A DNA stretch of 64,000 nucleotides from positions 434,001-498,000 of the forward strand of contig JAJDTU010000005.1 of assembly GCA_022826965.1 (NCBI GenBank), written 5' to 3'. A program made the translations under genes and the position numbers. The DNA is from Dehalococcoidia bacterium (GTDB lineage: Bacteria; Chloroflexota; Dehalococcoidia; Bin125). This document shows, in pieces, positions 18,863 to 59,150 of the stretch (its first letter is position 1; every line of letters starts with the position of its first letter). The notes under the pieces were generated by a model. It saw only the letters and a program-made list of their open reading frames with translations, had not been told where the DNA came from and did no database searches.

Positions 18863-19261
18863 CGGTTTGGCAACAAAGGTACCGCGACCGCTGCCGCTGG
18901 CTAACTGACGTCCCGCTCAGCACGGTCGTGACCGGCAATCCCGTGTCACCCCGACGCCCGGTGTCGCTCAGCCAACTCCGACACCGGCAACCCCTCCACA
19001 AGCACTTATGTTCGTACACAATCGCTGGTGCTCAGTGTTGGATGTGCCATCGACAGGAGACGAACGTGACTAGCACTTCCCCCCGGACCCTCCTGGATCA
19101 GCCAGGAAACACCTGGACGCACACTGACGAATACTGGCCACAACTGGTCGAACCTGGACACATCTGGACTTACCTGGACACTCCCGAGCCGAATTCCCAG
19201 CCCACGGCGGCAGATCAGCCCCACCCGTCCAGAATTCCTGCCGATCCACCCCAGCGACAAC
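18863..19261. other. intergenic region between the two giant protease genes
   Basis: 399 nt without a supportable gene, upstream of paralogue 1 (start 18862) and downstream of the paralogue 2 stop. Its main content is the 10-bp-phased CTGG array at 19091-19180, listed separately. A plus-strand open frame spanning it has no family resemblance and no ribosome-binding site. Confidence 0.7.
19091..19180. repeat. array of decamers carrying CTGG at strict 10-bp spacing
   Basis: CTGG starts at 19093, 19113, 19134, 19144, 19154, 19164 and 19174, with the inverse CCAGG at 19102 and CTGA at 19124 filling the gaps. Consecutive ten-base units read TCCTGGATCA, GCCAGGAAAC, ACCTGGACGC, ACACTGACGA, ATACTGGCCA, CAACTGGTCG, AACCTGGACA, CATCTGGACT and TACCTGGACA. 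The rough consensus is A-A-C-CTGGAC-A. The period is not a multiple of three, so it is a DNA- or RNA-level signal about 230-310 bp upstream of the paralogue 1 start. Confidence 0.75.
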
Positions 19262-22286: not shown

Positions 22287-23615
22287 TTACTGCGCCCGGT
22301 AGCGAACCATCTGCCGCTTGATTCCGCCCACGTGCAGCGACTGCGGCACCATCTCCGGTTCGCCGGCCAGTTCCAGGTTGAGCAGGATCGGCAAGAGCGC
22401 ATGGAAGATTGAGCGCATCTCCCAACGGGCCAGATTCGCGCCCAGGCAGAAGTGCTCGCCGTAGCCGCCAAACGCGAAGTGGTCGTTGGGATCGCGGCGA
22501 ATGTCGAACTTGTAGGGGTCTGGGAAGACCTCCTCGTCGCGATTGGCCGACGGGTACCACATCACGATCGAGTCGCCCTTGCGCAGCGTCTTGCCGCGCA
22601 GTTCCAGATCCTCGGTCACCGTGCGTTGGAACTGGATCACAATCGAGGTCCAGCGCAGAATCTCCTCGACCGCCGAAGGGATCAGCTCAGGGTTGGCGAC
22701 CAGATCGTCGAGTTGATCGCGATGATCCAGCAGCGCCTTGATCCCGCCCGTGATCGAGTTGCGCGTGGTCTCGTTGCCCGCTCCGATCAGGAGGCGGAAG
22801 TAGGAAGAAATCTCGCGCGGCGTCAGGTGCTCGCCGTCCACCTCTGCCCGCATCAGATCGCTCAGCAAGTCGTCTCCGAGTCCGTTCGATTCCCGCTCGC
22901 GCACAAGTCCCTCGTTGTAGACGTTGAACTCCAGGTTCACCCGACGGATCGTCTGCTCGCGATCCTCCCCGGGCAGCCGGAACTCCGGGTCGGCCGCGCC
23001 CGCGCTGGTCTCGGTCCAGTGGAAGATCTGCGACCAGTCGTCCTCTGGCACGCCGGCCATGTCGCAGATCGCCGCCACCGGCAGCAGCGCCGACACCTCG
23101 TGCACCACATCCAGGGCGCTGGTCGCGCCACGCTCGGCGAAGTCGGCGACGATTCGGTCCGCAAAGGTCGAGATGTAGTTCTCCGACATCTCGGCAAAAT
23201 GGTCCTCAAGCCGTTTCATCATCCGCGGTGTGAAGTGATGCGCCACCAGCCGCCGATGTTCCCGGTGCTCGGGTGGGTCCATGAAGATGAAGTCGGGCGG
23301 CTCCGAGGGATGCCCGCCGTAGCGGTTCGCGTTGACCTCGCGCCCGCGCTCCGTGATCCCGACCGACTCGGTGTCGTTGATCCGCAGGATCTGAGTATTG
23401 GAGAACAGCTCCGGGTGGGAGGAGATGTAGCGGATGTCCGCGTGCTTGCTGATCGCCCAGAACGGCTCGAAGTTGGGCCGCTGGTACCAGTAGACCGGCG
23501 CCTCGCGGCGCAGGATGTCCCAGGCCTCCCACGGGTAGCCGTAGTCGACGTACAGCGAAGTGTCGGTGATGTTCAGGTTGTCAAGCGTCAGTGCGGGTCG
23601 TGCGGCGGTAACCAT
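22287..23615 (-). CDS. cytochrome P450 (copy 1)
   Basis: 442 aa from ATG 23615, preceded by GGAGG. The heme loop FGGYGEHFCLG has the thiolate Cys390, the I-helix has GAGNETTR, and the K-helix has EEILR. Copies 2 and 3 share the N-terminal pattern GYPW..W..LRREAP-YWYQRP.FEPFWAI, so the three arose by tandem duplication. The family is a bacterial soluble P450 of the kind acting on terpenoids, sterols or alkyl chains; the substrate is unknown. Electrons probably come from the ferredoxin at 15271. It is third in a P450 run on the minus strand. Confidence 0.93.
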   Translation of the reverse strand: MVTAARPALTLDNLNITDTSLYVDYGYPWEAWDILRREAPVYWYQRPNFEPFWAISKHADIRYISSHPELFSNTQILRINDTESVGITERGREVNANRYGGHPSEPPDFIFMDPPEHREHRRLVAHHFTPRMMKRLEDHFAEMSENYISTFADRIVADFAERGATSALDVVHEVSALLPVAAICDMAGVPEDDWSQIFHWTETSAGAADPEFRLPGEDREQTIRRVNLEFNVYNEGLVRERESNGLGDDLLSDLMRAEVDGEHLTPREISSYFRLLIGAGNETTRNSITGGIKALLDHRDQLDDLVANPELIPSAVEEILRWTSIVIQFQRTVTEDLELRGKTLRKGDSIVMWYPSANRDEEVFPDPYKFDIRRDPNDHFAFGGYGEHFCLGANLARWEMRSIFHALLPILLNLELAGEPEMVPQSLHVGGIKRQMVRYRAQ

Positions 23616-23687
23616 TCCAAGCCTCCATGGCAGTCTCCGACCGGGAGATCCCAATGAAGATACCTGTTCGCGCCGACGAATTGAACG

Positions 23688-25013
23688 CTACGCAGGCCGA
23701 TAGCGGACCATCTGGCGCTTGATCCCGCCGACGTGGAGGAAGCCAATCACGTGCTCCGGATCGGCGGTGAGCTCGAGTTGCGGCAGGATCGGCCGCAGCG
23801 CATGGAAAATCGAGCGCATCTCCCAGCGAGCCAGATTCGCTCCCAGGCAGAAGTGCTCGCCGTAGCCGCCGAACGCGAAGTGGTCGTTGTCCTCGCGGGT
23901 GATGTCGAACCGGTAGGGGTCCTCAAACACATCCTCATCGCGATTCGCCGACGGATACCAGAGCACCACCGACTCGCCCTTGCGGATCGTCTGGCCGCGC
24001 AGCTCGACATCCTCCACCGCGGTGCGCTGGAACTGGATCACGATAGAGGTCCAGCGCAGGATCTCTTCGACTGCCGACGGGACCAGCGAGGCGTCGTCGA
24101 CGAGCATCTGCATCTGTTCGGGGTGATCGATCAACGCCTTGACACCGCCGGAGATGGAGTTCCGCGTCGTCTCGTTGCCGGCCGCCAGCAGCAGAACGAA
24201 GTAGCCGTGGATTTCGCCCGGCGTAAGCTTGCGTCCGTCGACTTCGGCCCGCAGCAGATCGCTGAGCAGGTCGTCGCCGAGATTGCGCTTGCGTTCCTCG
24301 ATCAGGTTGTTGTTGTAGTGGAACCACTCCACCGAGATCCGCTGGCTCGCCTGGCTCGCGGTCTCACCCGGCAGTCGATACTCCGGGTCCTCCGCGCCGA
24401 CGAGCACCTCGGTCCACTCGAAGATCTGATCCCAGTCTTCCTCCGGCACGCCGCCCATCGAGCAGATCGCGGCGACCGGCAGCTTCGCCGAGAGCTCGTG
24501 CACCACGTCAACCGCCGACTTCGAGCCGCGCTCCGCGAAATCGGCGACGACCTTGTCGGCGAAGTCCGAGACATAGTTCTCCGCCATGTGGGCGAAGTGA
24601 TCCTCGAGCATCTTCATCATGCGCGGGGTGAAATGCCGCGCGACGAGGCTGCGGTGCTGACGATGCTCAGGCGGGTCCATGTAGATGAAGTCAGGCGGAT
24701 CGTCCGGGTGTCCTCCGGTGCGATTCGTGCCCGCCTCGCGTTGTCGCTGGGCCGAAGCTAGCTTCGACGCCTTGTTCAATCGCAGCATCTGGGTGTTCGA
24801 GAACAGCTCGGGGTGCGAGGAGATGAAGCGGATATCGGCGTGCCTGGTGATCGCCCAGAACGGCTCGAAGCCCGGCCGCTGGTACCAGTAGACCGGCGCT
24901 TCGCGGCGTAGCAGAGCCCACTCGGCCCACGGATAACCAACGTCGCGGTAGCGATCCGCATCGGTGATATCGACGCTGTCGAGTGTCAGTCCTGGCGCTT
25001 CGGCGATAACCAT
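23688..25013 (-). CDS. cytochrome P450 (copy 2)
   Basis: 441 aa from ATG 25013, with AGAGGAGC as ribosome-binding site; an upstream in-frame ATG at 25103 gives a 30-residue tail absent from its paralogues. Heme ligand Cys389 lies in FGGYGEHFCLG, the I-helix is AAGNETTRNS and the K-helix EEILR. Closest in the window to copy 3 (both have VGYPWAEW- or HGYPWAEW-like N-termini and the ITRHADIR segment). Middle gene of the tandem run; 72 nt separate its stop from copy 1's start. Confidence 0.93.
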   Translation of the reverse strand: MVIAEAPGLTLDSVDITDADRYRDVGYPWAEWALLRREAPVYWYQRPGFEPFWAITRHADIRFISSHPELFSNTQMLRLNKASKLASAQRQREAGTNRTGGHPDDPPDFIYMDPPEHRQHRSLVARHFTPRMMKMLEDHFAHMAENYVSDFADKVVADFAERGSKSAVDVVHELSAKLPVAAICSMGGVPEEDWDQIFEWTEVLVGAEDPEYRLPGETASQASQRISVEWFHYNNNLIEERKRNLGDDLLSDLLRAEVDGRKLTPGEIHGYFVLLLAAGNETTRNSISGGVKALIDHPEQMQMLVDDASLVPSAVEEILRWTSIVIQFQRTAVEDVELRGQTIRKGESVVLWYPSANRDEDVFEDPYRFDITREDNDHFAFGGYGEHFCLGANLARWEMRSIFHALRPILPQLELTADPEHVIGFLHVGGIKRQMVRYRPA

Positions 25014-25062
25014 GGGAGCTCCTCTTCGTCCTGTTGGGCGAAATGCTACGACACCGGCTCGG

Positions 25063-26391
25063 CTAGGCCGGGCGGTGACGCACCATCTGGCGCTTGATCC
25101 CACCGACGTGAAGGAAGGAGATCACGTACTCCGGGTCAGCCGCGATCTCCAGTTGCGGCAGGATCGGACGCAGCGCGTGGAAGATCGAGCGCATCTCCCA
25201 GCGCGCGAGGCTGGCGCCGAGGCAGAAGTGCTCGCCGTATCCCCCAAAGGCAAAATGGTCGTTCTCCTTGCGCGTGATGTCGAACTTGTAGGGATCCTCG
25301 AAGATCTCCTCGTCGCGGTTGGCCGACGGGTACCAAAGCACCACCGACTCGCCCTTGCGGATCGTCTGGCCGCGCAGTTCGACATCCTGCACCGCGGTTC
25401 GCTGGAACTGGATCACGATCGACGTCCAGCGCAGGATCTCCTCGACCGCCGATGGAACCAGCGACTCGTCCTCGACCAGCATCTGCATCTGTTCGGGATG
25501 GTCGAGCAGGGCCTTGACGCCGCCGGTGATCGCATTGCGCGTCGTCTCGTTGCCCGCGCCCAGCAGCAGGAAGAAGTAGTTATGCACCTCGTCCGGCGTC
25601 AGGTTGCGACCGTCGATCTCCGCTTGCAGCAGGTCGCTGAGCAGGTCCTCGCCGAATCCGTTGCGATGGCGCTCTTCGATCAATCCCTGGGTGTGTCGGA
25701 ACCATTGCCCGACGACCCGCTGGGTCGCCTGGAACGAGTTCTCTCCCGGTTCCCAGTACTCGGGGTCGTCTTGTCCGGCGAAGGCCTCCGTCCACTCGAA
25801 AATCTTCTCCCAGTCCTCCTCCGGCACGCCGCCCATGTCGCAGATTGCGGCGACCGGCAGCTTGGCCGAGAGTTCGTGAACGACGTCAACCGCCGAGTCG
25901 GCTCCTTTGTCGGCGAAACTCGCGACCACTTTGTCGGCAAAGTCGGAAACGTAGTTCTCCGCCAGCTCGCCGAAGTGATCCTCGAGTGTCTTCATCACGC
26001 GCGGCGTGAAATGACGCGCAACGATGCCACGATGTTGGCGATGTTCCGGCGGATCCATCCAGATGAAGTCCTGCGGATCGGACGGATCGCCGCCGTGCCG
26101 ATTGGTCTGGAACTCCCGCTCGGTCTGTTGCTGGGTGAGTTTCTGCGCCGTGTTCAGCCGCAGCATCTGCGAGTTCGAGAACAGCTCGGGATGTGCGCTG
26201 ATGTAGCGAATATCAGCGTGCCTGGTGATCGCCCAGAACGGTTCGAACCCGGGTCGTTGGTACCAGTAGATCGGCGCCTCGCGACGGAGCAGATCCCACT
26301 CCGCCCACGGATAGCCGTGGTCGCGGTAGCGGTCGGAGTCGGTGATATCGAGCGTGTCGAGTGTGAGTCGCGGTGCTTCGCTGGTAACCAT
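25063..26391 (-). CDS. cytochrome P450 (copy 3, first in transcription order)
   Basis: 442 aa from ATG 26391, preceded by GGGAGG; a longer start at 26514 overlaps the divergent hydrolase and is rejected. Cys390 in FGGYGEHFCLG is the heme ligand, the I-helix reads GAGNETTRNA and the K-helix EEILR. It heads the minus-strand run copy 3, copy 2, copy 1, paralogue 2 protease. The divergent alpha/beta hydrolase starts 85 nt away, and a palindrome lies in the shared control region. Confidence 0.93.
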   Translation of the reverse strand: MVTSEAPRLTLDTLDITDSDRYRDHGYPWAEWDLLRREAPIYWYQRPGFEPFWAITRHADIRYISAHPELFSNSQMLRLNTAQKLTQQQTEREFQTNRHGGDPSDPQDFIWMDPPEHRQHRGIVARHFTPRVMKTLEDHFGELAENYVSDFADKVVASFADKGADSAVDVVHELSAKLPVAAICDMGGVPEEDWEKIFEWTEAFAGQDDPEYWEPGENSFQATQRVVGQWFRHTQGLIEERHRNGFGEDLLSDLLQAEIDGRNLTPDEVHNYFFLLLGAGNETTRNAITGGVKALLDHPEQMQMLVEDESLVPSAVEEILRWTSIVIQFQRTAVQDVELRGQTIRKGESVVLWYPSANRDEEIFEDPYKFDITRKENDHFAFGGYGEHFCLGASLARWEMRSIFHALRPILPQLEIAADPEYVISFLHVGGIKRQMVRHRPA

Positions 26392-26475: not shown

Positions 26476-27336
26476 ATGGCTGACGTGATGCGACCGGACG
26501 GCACGACGATCCACTACGAGGTGTTCGGCGAGAGCAACGGCGGCACGCCGCTACTGCTGCTGGCCCCGGGCGGCGTGAACTCGCAGATCGAGTTCTGGCA
26601 GCGCTCGGTCATCAACCCGATCGAGTCGTTCACCGACGAGTTCATGGTGATCGGCATGGATCAGCGCCACTGCGGCGGGAGCAAGACCTCGCTCGAGCCG
26701 TTCAGCTACGACAAGGCGATGCTGGACCAGATCGCCGTGCTCAACGACCTCAACGTGCAGCGAGCGCACATCATGGGCGGTTGCATCGGCTGCGCCTACG
26801 CGCTGCGTCTCGGCGACCAGGCGCCTGCTCGCGTTGGCGGCCTGATCATGCAGGATCCCGTCGGGCTCGACGAAACGAACTCGCCCGAGACGTTCTACGA
26901 CATGTTCAACCCCACGATCCGCCTGGCCCGGGCGGAAGGACTGGAAGCGGTGATCGAGTCGGCCAACCGTGATCCCGTGTTCATGCAGAACAACGAAGCG
27001 GGACCGTTTGCACAGCGAATCCACGACGATCCGCTCTACGCCGACGCGCTGCGAACGATGCGGCGGGAGGCCTACATCGCCCTCGTGGTCGAGTTCCGCG
27101 ACGGGATGTGGCCAACTGGATCGCCGTACTTCGCCGTCAACGAGGTCGCGGTGCGGCGCACACACTCGCCGATGCTGGTGCTTCCGGGGGCCGACCCGTT
27201 CCATCCCACCGGTATCGGTCACCGAATCTGCAACGAAGCGCCCAACGCCCGCTGCCTCGACGTCGACGCCAGGTCTCCCGAGAAGCTGCCAGAAACCCTC
27301 GAAGCAATCCGCCAGTTCATGCGCGACTGCAGCTAG
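26476..27336 (+). CDS. alpha/beta hydrolase with cysteine at the nucleophile elbow
   Basis: 286 aa. The fold is shown by LLLLAPGGVNSQIEFW (oxyanion strand and loop), the GMDQRHCGGS segment and the elbow HIMGGCIGCAYAL near residue 100. The elbow is G-G-C-I-G, so the nucleophile position is Cys rather than the usual Ser. A late acidic/His candidate pair lies in PGADPFHPTG. Related haloperoxidase-like and dienelactone-type hydrolases exist, but the substrate is open. It is divergent from the P450 run and shares a promoter-like motif with the ferredoxin gene. Confidence 0.86.
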   Translation: MADVMRPDGTTIHYEVFGESNGGTPLLLLAPGGVNSQIEFWQRSVINPIESFTDEFMVIGMDQRHCGGSKTSLEPFSYDKAMLDQIAVLNDLNVQRAHIMGGCIGCAYALRLGDQAPARVGGLIMQDPVGLDETNSPETFYDMFNPTIRLARAEGLEAVIESANRDPVFMQNNEAGPFAQRIHDDPLYADALRTMRREAYIALVVEFRDGMWPTGSPYFAVNEVAVRRTHSPMLVLPGADPFHPTGIGHRICNEAPNARCLDVDARSPEKLPETLEAIRQFMRDCS

Positions 27337-27620: not shown

Positions 27621-27755
27621 GGAACCGAACGGAAGCGAACAAATGCGAACACCAACACCCACCGAAACCAACCGTCCCTGCGCGGCCTCCGTTGACCCCC
27701 TTCTCGACCGCGAACAAACCGAACCCTGCCGAACAAAGCCGAACAAGGCCGAACG
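27621..27755. repeat. two arrays of CGAAC at 10-bp spacing
   Basis: CGAAC starts at 27626, 27636 and 27646 (array 1) and at 27711, 27720, 27730, 27740 and 27750 (array 2). The flanks vary (CGAACGGAAG, CGAACAAATG, CGAACCCTGC, CGAACAAAGC, CGAACAAGGC), so only the pentamer and its spacing are conserved. Two more CGAAC copies lie at 27507 and 27520. The spacing places all copies on one face of the helix. It sits about 230-360 bp upstream of the AIM24-family gene. Confidence 0.75.
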
Positions 27756-27981
27756 CCGAAACTACTCAAAACGTGCCCAAAATCTTCCATTTTTGTCCAC
27801 CTCGATCGCACGATCTCCCGCAAAACACTGGGTTTCCTCGCCTCGACCGCCCGAGAGAAAAATTCTGCCGAATCGCGAGATCGGACGAAAAATCGCGCAG
27901 CGCGAACACGCGCTCAGCCCATGGTTCCGTATCTGACATAGAGTGAGTTCGACCCTGAGCCAACGCAAAGGAACCAATCAC

Positions 27982-28650
27982 ATGCAGTACGAGATTCTCC
28001 ACCGCCCCTCCTACGCCCTGGCGCAGATTGAACTGGCCTCCGGCGAACAACTGCAGGCCGAAGCCGGCGCCATGGTCTCGATGTCCGCCAGCGTCTCCAT
28101 CGAAACCGGCATGAAGGGCGGGCTGCTTGGAGGACTCAAGCGCTCCATGCTGGGCGGCGAGAGTTTCTTCATCAACACCTTCACGGCTGAGCAGTCGGGC
28201 GAGGTCACGATTGCGCCAGGTTTGCCTGGTGACATCCAGGCAATCGAGATGAACGGCAACTCGGTACTCGTGCAGTCGGGATCATTTCTCGCGGCAACAC
28301 CCGAGATTGAGGTCGATACGTCCTGGGGCGGCTCGAAGAGCTTCTTCTCGGGCGAGGGACTGATCCTCCTCCGTTGCACCGGATATGGCCTGCTGTTTCT
28401 CTCCAGCTACGGCGCGATCCATCTCAAGGAACTCAACGTCGGCGAGGAATACACCGTCGACACCGGCCACATGGTCGCCTTCGACGAGTCGGTCAAGTAC
28501 AGCGTCGGCCGCTCGGGCGGCTGGAAGACCACGCTGCTGTCCGGCGAGGGTCTGGTCTGCAAGCTTGAAGGCCCGGGCCGCTTCTACATGCAGACCCGCA
28601 GCCAGGACGCCTTCCTGAGCTGGCTGCTGCCCAAGATTCCGAAGCAGTAA
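27982..28650 (+). CDS. AIM24/TIGR00266 family protein
   Basis: 222 aa from ATG 27982 (AAAGGAACC upstream). Family marks are the LQAEAGAMVSMS segment, the Gly-rich GGLLGGLKRSMLGGESFFINTF, then LLFLSSYGAIH and VDTGHMVAFDESVKYSVGRSG. These proteins form compact beta-sandwich structures of unknown biochemical role; mitochondrial Aim24 affects cristae organisation, and bacterial members are uncharacterised. The large repeat-bearing gap upstream is unusual. Followed 31 nt later by the TauE/SafE gene. Confidence 0.9.
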   Translation: MQYEILHRPSYALAQIELASGEQLQAEAGAMVSMSASVSIETGMKGGLLGGLKRSMLGGESFFINTFTAEQSGEVTIAPGLPGDIQAIEMNGNSVLVQSGSFLAATPEIEVDTSWGGSKSFFSGEGLILLRCTGYGLLFLSSYGAIHLKELNVGEEYTVDTGHMVAFDESVKYSVGRSGGWKTTLLSGEGLVCKLEGPGRFYMQTRSQDAFLSWLLPKIPKQ

Positions 28651-57231: not shown

Positions 57232-57308
57232 CCCCCCGTAGCTCAACCGGACAGAGCGACGGACTTCTAATCCGTAGGCTGGAGGTTCGAGTCCTCCCGG
57301 GGGGACCA
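57232..57308 (+). tRNA. tRNA-Arg (anticodon TCT), CCA encoded
   Basis: Acceptor stem CCCCCCG / CGGGGGG (57232-57238 with 57298-57304), D-arm GCTC/GAGC, anticodon arm ACGGA-CTTCTAA-TCCGT with TCT as anticodon, T-arm GGAGG-TTCGAGT-CCTCC, discriminator A and CCA at 57306-57308. All stems pair perfectly. The first tRNA base directly follows the TGA of the transglycosylase gene, so the two are probably cotranscribed. Confidence 0.96.
57246..57308 (+). repeat. 63-bp direct repeat, left copy (within the tRNA gene)
   Basis: From ACCGGACAGAGC to the CCA end of tRNA-Arg this 63-bp stretch is identical to 58197-58259. The pair flanks a 951-bp islet (57309-58259) and looks like attL/attR of an element that inserted at the tRNA 3' half. 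Confidence 0.85.
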
Positions 57309-57328
57309 TGTCCTCGGTCTGGTCAGAC

Positions 57329-57643
57329 TTACCGGCTTACTTCCAAGGGACGGATGCTATCGATCTGCTCCGCCTCGTCCTGCTGTGCGTAGAACAGATC
57401 CCAGCGCAGCTGCAGGTTCATCCAGAAGTCGGGGGAGGTTCCCAGGAACCTGGACAGGCGCAGCGCCGTGCTGGGGGTGACGCCGCGTCTACCGCGCACG
57501 ATTTCGTTCACCCGCTGAAACGGCACATGGATCGACGTGGCCAGTTCGCGCTGGGTCAGGTCCATGGGCTGCAGGAACTCCTGGAGCAACATTTCGCCGG
57601 GGTGAGTCGGTACTCGGTCAGTGGGAATGCGGACCACAGGCAT
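57329..57643 (-). CDS. higA: HigA-type antitoxin (XRE family)
   Basis: 104 aa. The helix-turn-helix runs LTQRELATSIHVPFQRVNEIVRG (about residues 29-51), followed by the HigA marks GVTPSTALRLSRFLGTSPDFWMNLQ. It neutralises the HigB toxin encoded 8 nt upstream and should repress its own promoter. ATG 57643 has AGGAG 5 nt upstream. Enclosed in the tRNA-bounded islet. Confidence 0.92.
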   Translation of the reverse strand: MPVVRIPTDRVPTHPGEMLLQEFLQPMDLTQRELATSIHVPFQRVNEIVRGRRGVTPSTALRLSRFLGTSPDFWMNLQLRWDLFYAQQDEAEQIDSIRPLEVSR

Positions 57644-57651
57644 CTCCTCTC

Positions 57652-57945
57652 CTAGTGATAGTCGGTGATCTCTACTTGATCCGGGCCTGCATCGGTCCAG
57701 CGGAAACAGATGCGGTACTGCTCGTTGATTCGAATGCTGTGCTGACCAATGCGATCTCCGCTGAGCCGCTCCAGCCTGTTGCCGGGAGGCACGGCGAGGT
57801 CGTTCAAGACGGCGGCGGAATCAAGCATGTCCAGCTTCCTCCGAGCGACGCTCCAAATCGAGGCGGGACAACAGCGTCGCGCGCGGCGAGTGTCGCGACC
57901 GTTGAACACGTCCTCGGTACCGGCGGCCTCGAATGTGACGATCAT
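57652..57945 (-). CDS. higB: HigB/RelE-type toxin
   Basis: 97 aa. Family marks: RKLDMLDSAAVLNDLAVPPGNRLERLSGDR, IGQHSIRINEQYRICFRW and the VEITDYH end, with the catalytic His/Arg pattern of HigB mRNA endonucleases. Ribosome-dependent mRNA cleavage is the known activity of the family. No ribosome-binding site is visible before ATG 57945; the start may be leaderless. An inverted repeat operator overlaps the upstream region. Confidence 0.9.
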   Translation of the reverse strand: MIVTFEAAGTEDVFNGRDTRRARRCCPASIWSVARRKLDMLDSAAVLNDLAVPPGNRLERLSGDRIGQHSIRINEQYRICFRWTDAGPDQVEITDYH

Positions 57946-57953
57946 GGTAGCAC

Positions 57954-57976
57954 GCTAGCACGGTATCCATGCTAGC
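57954..57976 (-). promoter_or_regulatory. inverted repeat upstream of higB (candidate operator)
   Basis: GCTAGCA and TGCTAGC form a perfect 7-bp inverted repeat with a 9-bp spacer, 9-31 nt upstream of the higB ATG. TAGCACG also occurs twice at 57947 and 57955. HigA antitoxins usually repress their own promoter through such sites. Confidence 0.5.
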
Positions 57977-58129
57977 AGCCATTTTGGGCCGCTTGAGTCG
58001 TATCGACCGCCGCAAGCTTCTCCGTTGACGAATCGATGCGGCCGGCCGATCCAGCCGGAGCGTCCGATCCCTTGCGAGGCCTGTTGAAGCCAGGCGGAAG
58101 GGCAGACGGTTGGCCGGGCGGCAGAGCGG

Positions 58130-58228
58130 ATGGGGCTGAATCGCGACTTCGAGGAGACGATACACGCCCAGGCCCAGCAGGATCCGGCGTTGGCAGACCG
58201 GACAGAGCGACGGACTTCTAATCCGTAG
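58130..58228 (+). pseudogene. possible antitoxin-gene remnant running into the tRNA fragment
   Basis: ATG 58130 opens a 32-codon frame, MGLNRDFEETIHAQAQQDP and so on, resembling the N-terminus of HTH antitoxins of RelE-type pairs (pattern LxRDFxETxxxRxQxDPAF). At the edge of the tRNA repeat (58197) the sequence changes to tRNA-encoded residues and stops. It suggests the tRNA-bounded recombination event cut the gene. Too short to be certain. Confidence 0.35.
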
Positions 58229-58259
58229 GCTGGAGGTTCGAGTCCTCCCGGGGGGACCA
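58197..58259 (+). repeat. truncated second copy of the tRNA-Arg 3' part (63-bp direct repeat, right copy)
   Basis: Identical to 57246-57308. It contains the anticodon arm, T-arm, acceptor 3' strand and CCA but no 5' acceptor strand or full D-arm, so it is not a functional tRNA. It marks the right end of the 951-bp islet. Confidence 0.9.
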
Positions 58260-58265
58260 GGGCGG

Positions 58266-59150
58266 CTACTTGCCATAGAGGCGGGCCAGTTTGTCCAGGG
58301 CTCTGATCTCGGCGAGCGGGTCGCTGTTCTGCTCGGCGGCGTGCACCTGCTGGGTGAGACGGATGGCCTCTGCTTCCAGATGGGGTGGGAGATCAGTTGC
58401 CGGCGTTGGGAGCCCCCCTCTGCCTTCGGCATCTCCCCCCGCTCCGCGGGGGGAGAGGGGAAGAGGAGGAACACGCACAGGTCCCAGAGCGGGAGGGCTG
58501 GAGGACTGGGGGTGGCAGTGTTTGCGTTTGCGTCCGCTTCCGCAGGGACAGGGCTTGTTGCGTCCGGTGTTTCGGGGCAGGTTTTCGGTCGCATTCAGGT
58601 TTTCGGAAGAATTTTTTTCTGAGGCCGGCTGAGGCTCGATTTCCCGTGTTTTGCTGGTCCTGGCGGGTTGAGGATTTTCAGGTTTTTTCAGGTTTCTTCG
58701 CGGAACTTCAGGGTCGGCGAGCTCGTGATCGGGGTAATCGTCGAATTCGTCCTCGGTGATCTCGCCGCTTTCCGGCTGGACCGCACAGGGGAGTTCGCGG
58801 AGGAGCATGCGGAACTTGCGACAGGCGGCATTGAGGTTGCGGGTATGGAGGGCCTCAATGCGGATGACCTCATCGGGGGTGAGCGGGGACTCCGGGCCTG
58901 GAGGCTGGCGGTTGAGCAGTCGGCCGATGCGTCGGTTGACGCGGGTGATCTGCTGGAGGAGGAGGTCCTGGCGGGTGGCCTGGGCAAACTCGTTCCAGTT
59001 GGTCTCGAGGAGCCGGAGGTCGGCGTGGACGGTGGCGACGGAGACTCCGAGCTTGTCGGCGATGTACTGGAGGGTGTTTCCGTTCTGCCGGAGCTGGTGT
59101 TCGCGCTGCATGCGTCGGCGTCGTCTGGGTGAGATGTTGGGGCTGTTCAT
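58266..59150 (-). CDS. HTH protein with SEC-C zinc motif and inserted repeat
   Basis: 294 aa from ATG 59150, with GAGGAGGAA upstream; a longer frame to 59333 is rejected. A basic N-terminus leads into a helix-turn-helix (LQYIADKLGVSVATVHADLR, about residues 28-47). After a charged region with short Asn/Glu-rich repeats (ENLNATENL) comes a SEC-C motif CPCGSGRKRKHCH. Then VPPLPLSPRGAGG and EGRGGLPTP are translated from the double-hairpin repeat at 58408-58460, and a helical end follows (AIRLTQQVHAAEQNSDP). The HTH resembles small phage-terminase or DeoR-like domains; function unknown. Confidence 0.62.
   Translation of the reverse strand: MNSPNISPRRRRRMQREHQLRQNGNTLQYIADKLGVSVATVHADLRLLETNWNEFAQATRQDLLLQQITRVNRRIGRLLNRQPPGPESPLTPDEVIRIEALHTRNLNAACRKFRMLLRELPCAVQPESGEITEDEFDDYPDHELADPEVPRRNLKKPENPQPARTSKTREIEPQPASEKNSSENLNATENLPRNTGRNKPCPCGSGRKRKHCHPQSSSPPALGPVRVPPLPLSPRGAGGDAEGRGGLPTPATDLPPHLEAEAIRLTQQVHAAEQNSDPLAEIRALDKLARLYGK
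58408..58460. repeat. double-hairpin repeat element, copy inside the HTH/SEC-C gene
   Basis: Lead GGGAGCCCCCCTCT, small hairpin GCC-TTC-GGC (58422-58430), then CTCCCCCCGC-TCC-GCGGGGGGAG (58433-58455), ending GAGGGG. Lead and C-run hairpin are almost identical to the copy at 61611. The repeat is in frame with the host gene. Confidence 0.8.
58675..58694. repeat. perfect decamer tandem in the HTH/SEC-C gene
   Basis: TTTTCAGGTT is repeated exactly at 58675 and 58685. A related CAGGTTTTCGG pair lies at 58578 and 58596. The 10-bp unit is not a codon multiple, so it is not simply a protein repeat. Confidence 0.6.

Follow-up and report, generated by a model that had tools for sequence, protein, structure and literature searches.

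What are the two arrays of the pentamer CGAAC that lie in front of an AIM24-family gene in this Dehalococcoidia bacterium, and what might bind them? Within the window, by which we mean the whole 64,000-nucleotide stretch analysed here, both arrays occupy a 645-nt gap between the stop codon of an abhydrolase gene (position 27336) and the start of the AIM24-family gene (27982..28650, + strand; Pfam PF01987, E 3e-73). The first-pass annotation had described eight CGAAC copies spaced by 9-10 bp in groups of three and five, and their start positions were confirmed. Array 1 (27626..27650, + strand) has three units at a 10-bp pitch, starting at 27626, 27636 and 27646 (lags of 10 and 10), and array 2 (27711..27754, + strand) has five units at a 9-10-bp pitch, starting at 27711, 27720, 27730, 27740 and 27750 (lags of 9, 10, 10 and 10). 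An order-3 Markov simulation of the window produced 0.04 four-unit and zero five-unit chains of 5-mers (lag 9-11) per window, and when an order-2 model was trained on the array, 3 of 2000 runs yielded a five-unit chain. Elsewhere in the window, at 22287-26391, three tandem related genes of 455, 471 and 483 aa look by sequence like cytochrome P450 paralogs.

The arrays are a genome-wide family. The exact three-unit pattern CGAAC-N5-CGAAC-N5-CGAAC has 28 matches in the organism's own 3.0-Mb genome and its reversed control has 0, while relatives have up to 65 matches versus 0 reversed; the recurrence at lag 10 thus goes beyond what a GAAC-rich composition would give. In 853 kb of the same genome, 5-mer chains of at least three units lying between genes numbered 21 at lag 10 and 0-1 at lags 7, 8, 13 and 14; the count at lag 9 was also 21, but lags that are multiples of three are raised by coding-like sequence. 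When 61 genomes were scanned, the three-unit pattern was found in 13 of the 15 members of the genus (1 to 65 matches each) and, with 57 matches, in G017, which belongs to another genus of the same family; the rest contributed a single match. Matches in wider collections fell in scattered organisms, near the chance expectation for collections of that size. These genomes are draft MAGs, the copy counts rest on exact or near-exact patterns, and the gene calls are codon-model calls made in the analysis. A regular 100-kb spacing of arrays, seen on contig C4, was absent on the other contigs.

Taken over 114 arrays, the repeat unit reads YCGAAC and then a purine-rich spacer, most arrays have 3-5 units, and the interval between units is 10 bp in 266 of 284 cases and 9 bp in 14. 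The pentamers are direct, as had been noted, with all units of the window on the + strand; a LexA box, which needs inverted half-sites, is thereby rejected. The arrays form one part of a composite of ~150-250 bp, in which the CGAAC array is followed by a second 10-bp array with another core (the CCTGAAAAAA, TTGACCAAAA or CAAAA types), then by the palindrome CGATCYCCMGYRAAACACTGGA and then by the A-tract GAAAAAAATTC. In the window, the variable second module is a CAAAA/TGTCCACC stretch (CTCAAAACGTGCCCAAAATCTTCCATTTTTGTCCACC; 27765..27801, + strand), at the position where other copies have CAAAA, TTGACC or CTGAA arrays. The palindrome module CGATCTCCCGCAAAACACTGGG (27811..27832, + strand) stands 56 bp past the array with one mismatch to the consensus, a level of match at which shuffles give 0 expected palindromes, and the A-tract AGAGAAAAATTC (27854..27865, + strand) recurs in other copies. 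On the 3' side of the whole element, the -10-like TAGAGT (27939..27944, + strand) is a candidate for the AIM24 promoter; it is kept in G000, G004, G001, G011 and G002, whether or not the element is present, and G009 shows ATAAAGTG at its position. On three contigs of G014 (C40, C9 and C38), tandem copies of the palindrome lie ~168-221 bp apart, which suggests multiplied composite blocks.

That lag-10 elements form a class whose cores differ, as was proposed, is borne out by 10-bp arrays of CGAAC, CTGAA, CAAAA/TTGACC-like and CGATC units in the same composites or in sister genes. The particular likeness drawn to the CTGG array at 19.1 kb (19134..19177, + strand, 10-bp pitch) held up less well: in the relative L377 a CTGGAC 10-bp array lies directly 5' of a CGAAC array, but the four-unit CTGG pattern occurs nowhere else in the genome, and this array is a possible relative with another core by a weak link. 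The first reading had missed the downstream palindrome, the A-tract, the directional placement of the arrays and a helix-turn-helix (HTH) gene family that bears the same modules, one copy of which lies in the window.

The distances from array to palindrome are stepwise, at 45-46, 55-58, 66-69, 77-79 and 87-88 bp. Since pooled counts are inflated by shared descent, we added a test that took a single member from each downstream gene family (n = 32), in which the phasing at ~11 bp had a vector length R of 0.76; for the 28 distances of 40-90 bp, the observed phasing was reached by 0 of 5000 random sets. The array-palindrome distances had no preference for multiples of three. Distances in helical steps favour a complex that forms at the DNA level, along one face of the helix.

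The placement of the arrays is directional. For 88 of 99 intergenic arrays the next downstream gene has the same sense, in co-directional gaps 61 arrays run with the genes and 5 against them, and divergent gaps hold 25 arrays versus 5 in convergent gaps, orthologous loci being counted in all three tallies. Two classes of array can be told apart. Those of the first lie roughly 100-500 bp upstream of a gene, usually with the composite, and often have a -10-like TANNNT downstream of the array and near the start codon; those of the second have no palindrome and stop 13-25 bp short of a start codon, in gaps that are mostly short. The downstream genes fall into 60 families, 20 of which have arrays in at least two genomes; they include what we take, from reading the proteins, to be efp, gltX, nuoB, uvrB, argG, LLM and CoA transferase genes. 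At an orthologous LLM promoter compared between G000 and G009, all four CGAAC units are retained over diverged spacers, and a CTGAA array in one species stands at the place of the other's CGAAC. At the AIM24, VOC and efp loci, where -10 or start regions are conserved, some species have the block beside them and others lack it; the flanks there are too diverged to define the ends of the block, and no target-site duplication was seen. Two further observations concern these loci. The array-free genomes among VOC loci L451-L459 share another conserved upstream stretch (GTGAACGTTNGATTAANGTA ... GTCAATAG ... GTCGATA). At L332 (G001), the short gap or composite element that other relatives have 5' of AIM24 is replaced by an insertion with a small gene and then a truncated frame similar to the beginning of a phage terminase large subunit.

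Which protein might read these sites? G017 has a dispersed multicopy gene, ~225-250 codons long and with an N-terminal HTH, that contains long arrays of up to ~15 units, and in the organism's own genus most arrays flagged as coding sit in homologues of this gene. A profile search found 7 copies in the organism's own genome and 0-17 in others. The window holds one of the seven (58266..59150, - strand), which encodes 294 aa with an N-terminal HTH, a disordered middle and a SEC-C zinc motif; its structure prediction was of low confidence, too poor for use. This gene abuts the second of two tRNA-Arg(TCT) genes that form a direct repeat at 57232-58259, 951 bp apart and with an XRE/HigA-like gene between them. 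HTH genes are solitary and dispersed, several at contig ends, and they are often convergent with their neighbour, which leaves the in-gene module copy without an obvious promoter role. Within the class, the family was found in 12 of 294 sampled genomes, all 12 in one bacterial family.

The copy numbers of these genes co-vary with those of the sites. Given as HTH genes/array matches/palindromes, the counts were 7/28/17 in G000, 14/65/29 in G001, 12/48/24 in G004, 14/11/39 in G005, 10/62/30 in G009, 9/63/22 in G011, 17/32/29 in G013, 17/38/61 in G014 and 10/57/1 in G017, with intermediate values in G008 (2/2/4) and G010 (5/3/4). The others had 0/0/0 (G002, G015, G016 and G019), 0/2/1 (G003), 0/5/5 (G006), 0/0/1 (G007), 0/1/1 (G012) and 1/0/0 (G018). 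Over the 20 genomes, the Spearman coefficient of HTH genes was 0.81 with arrays and 0.84 with palindromes. This co-variation is partly expected, since the HTH genes themselves contain modules, yet most array matches are intergenic. In a three-protein tree the rich genomes belong to three lineages: a main clade, G013, whose sisters are poor or intermediate, and G017. There are exceptions, namely G005, rich in HTH genes and palindromes with only 11 array matches, and G006, with five arrays, five palindromes and no HTH match.

The modules inside the genes differ by subfamily, as judged from 74 HTH genes, some of them truncated. CGAAC arrays are carried by 9 of the 11 HTH genes of the MSYPNFPNPARR type and by all six classified G017 copies; the G017 paralogs L589 and L515 also carry CGATC arrays, of ten and five units. 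An intergenic stretch of the same genome (L516) mixes CGATC and CGAAC 10-bp arrays. Genes of the NISPRRRRR type, to which the window copy (59150-58266) belongs, have the CTGAA pair in 10 of 11 cases and the palindrome in 11 of 11, and the RALKVHELRQ type has the palindrome in 5 of 5. In the window copy, a CTGAA pair, a palindrome with five mismatches and an A-tract lie at 58575..58725 (- strand, limits approximate). The in-gene array units are distributed over the codon phases as 62, 47 and 45. A 10-bp pitch makes the use of all three phases necessary, whereas a peptide repeat under selection purely as protein would not need it; we relied on this use alone, because codon preference within arrays that are defined by CGAAC is partly circular. 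The intergenic composites are not plainly decayed HTH genes, as no HTH remnant was found within 900 bp upstream of them (best E 0.19). Nor do they appear to be coding, since an open sense frame is missing from 21 of 55, the reverse strand is the more open one and there is no mod-3 preference in their distances. The gene-type frame is open in 25 of them, versus 16 and 11 for the other frames, and given this excess they may descend from the coding half of the HTH genes.

With moderate confidence, judging from sequence, we take the CGAAC arrays to be DNA sites that form one module of the composite, with the dispersed HTH family as their likeliest ligand and a role that is probably regulatory. This reading is supported by the genome-wide family with its zero controls, the helical steps, the 61:5 direction, the retention of cores over spacers, the blocks that come and go whole next to conserved -10 or start regions, the same modules in the HTH genes, the difference in core by subfamily and the co-variation in copy number. 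HTH protomers would line up next to one another along a single face of the double helix, each on its own pentamer and with one pentamer per helical turn, and may multimerise; a component bound at the palindrome would share that face with the array-bound oligomer; subfamilies would read different cores; and the complex, bound upstream, could modulate the promoter of the downstream gene. In G017 the palindrome is essentially missing although HTH genes and arrays are there, so that this module may have another ligand. Arrays ending 13-25 bp before start codons are unexplained by an upstream-activator model.

The main rival is a parasitic interspersed repeat of the BOX or MITE kind, in which a mobile unit consists of the HTH genes or carries them, the intergenic composites derive from its 3' half and have spread through intergenic DNA without host function, and the phasing is due to binding by the mobilising protein. 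Pneumococcal BOX repeats offer a precedent, being modular, intergenic, present in many copies, patchy among relatives and in some cases provided with reading frames (PMC3049150). The patchy copy number among close relatives, the blocks present or absent at orthologous sites, the solitary and dispersed HTH genes with several at contig ends, and the more often open gene-type frame all fit such a repeat. The copies, however, fall short of near-identity and lack sharp ends; unlike in BOX, what is constant is spacing and cores, not sequence, placement is strongly directional and 5' of genes, and there is a DNA-binding gene family to match. Array positions are moreover common to several species, and no transposase domain was found. 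By itself, a BOX-like repeat leaves the phasing, the direction and the conservation of the cores unexplained, and we regard the parasitic account as possible though not probable.

We consider it unlikely that the element acts as RNA, with the arrays serving in leader or operon transcripts as sites of an RNA-binding protein, or else forming an unstructured leader that is A/C-rich. The sense orientation of the arrays relative to genes and their occurrence in short gaps right before start codons, as at efp, are compatible with this, and the palindrome could, from its letters, form an RNA hairpin. Helical phasing disfavours it, the distances being quantised in turns of DNA, as do the conserved -10-like boxes 3' of the arrays at AIM24 and VOC, where promoters further upstream are nonetheless possible.

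Response regulators of the OmpR/PhoB type recognise direct repeats at a pitch of ~9-11 bp. BldC (PMC5859096) and, in Mollicutes, MraZ (PMC5282649) bind direct repeats of similar pitch, and the arrays might be sites of one such known regulator, which we hold to be very improbable. MraZ boxes resemble the arrays as short direct repeats at a 10-bp pitch and differ in core; the MraZ gene is present in 20 of 20 genomes, with or without arrays, and the mraZ promoters read in G001, G002, G012 and G017 keep their own TGGGG-type repeats rather than CGAAC, so MraZ was rejected as the binder. HTH_17 proteins likewise occur in 20 of 20 genomes regardless of arrays, and a BldC-like member was rejected for this want of co-variation. 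Streptomyces BldC, a small HTH-type protein, forms cooperative head-to-tail multimers on direct repeats that vary in number, with a subunit for roughly each turn, on 9-bp sites with the core AATTXXXXC (PMC5859096). The arrays share the variable number of direct repeats, here 3-5 units at a 10-bp pitch, but the fold class and core are different, and no sites inside bldC's own gene are reported there (PMC5859096). A counterpart for that last trait is the phage small terminase, whose HTH motifs lie about one B-DNA turn apart and whose gene is overlapped by the repeat-bearing pac (PMC4737164, PMC6316719), much as arrays or palindrome modules lie inside the HTH genes here; the present family, in contrast, is chromosomal and multicopy. 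Searches of the HTH proteins gave only weak HTH matches, with terminase models at E 0.03, and no viral relatives, and a terminase identity was rejected, no homologs being found. BldC multimers and the small-terminase HTHs are thus precedents for parts of the proposed mechanism, but none of BldC, MraZ and the small terminase fits as the family of the array binder.

Finally, a compositional accident in A/C-rich intergenic DNA, which the region is, stands refuted by the reversed controls (28:0 in this genome, up to 65:0 in relatives) and by the concentration of lag-10 chains in intergenic DNA.

The pairing of phased sites with the HTH family suggests a lineage-specific protein-and-site system that has not been described. 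A wider reading, which we put forward tentatively and think rather doubtful, is that HTH paralogs carry phased arrays of their subfamily's core within their reading frames and that copies of these self-encoded sites front dozens of unrelated genes, proteins and sites thus spreading and diversifying hand in hand. The arrays offer a concrete case for choosing between a domesticated regulatory network and a selfish repeat. If the pairing is true, uncultured Chloroflexota would have a family of DNA-binding proteins not described so far, with sites inside the HTH genes themselves as well as in front of core genes such as efp, gltX, nuoB, uvrB and argG. The core of each paralog would then be predictable from its own gene, and the co-evolution of binding specificity with site networks would be directly testable.
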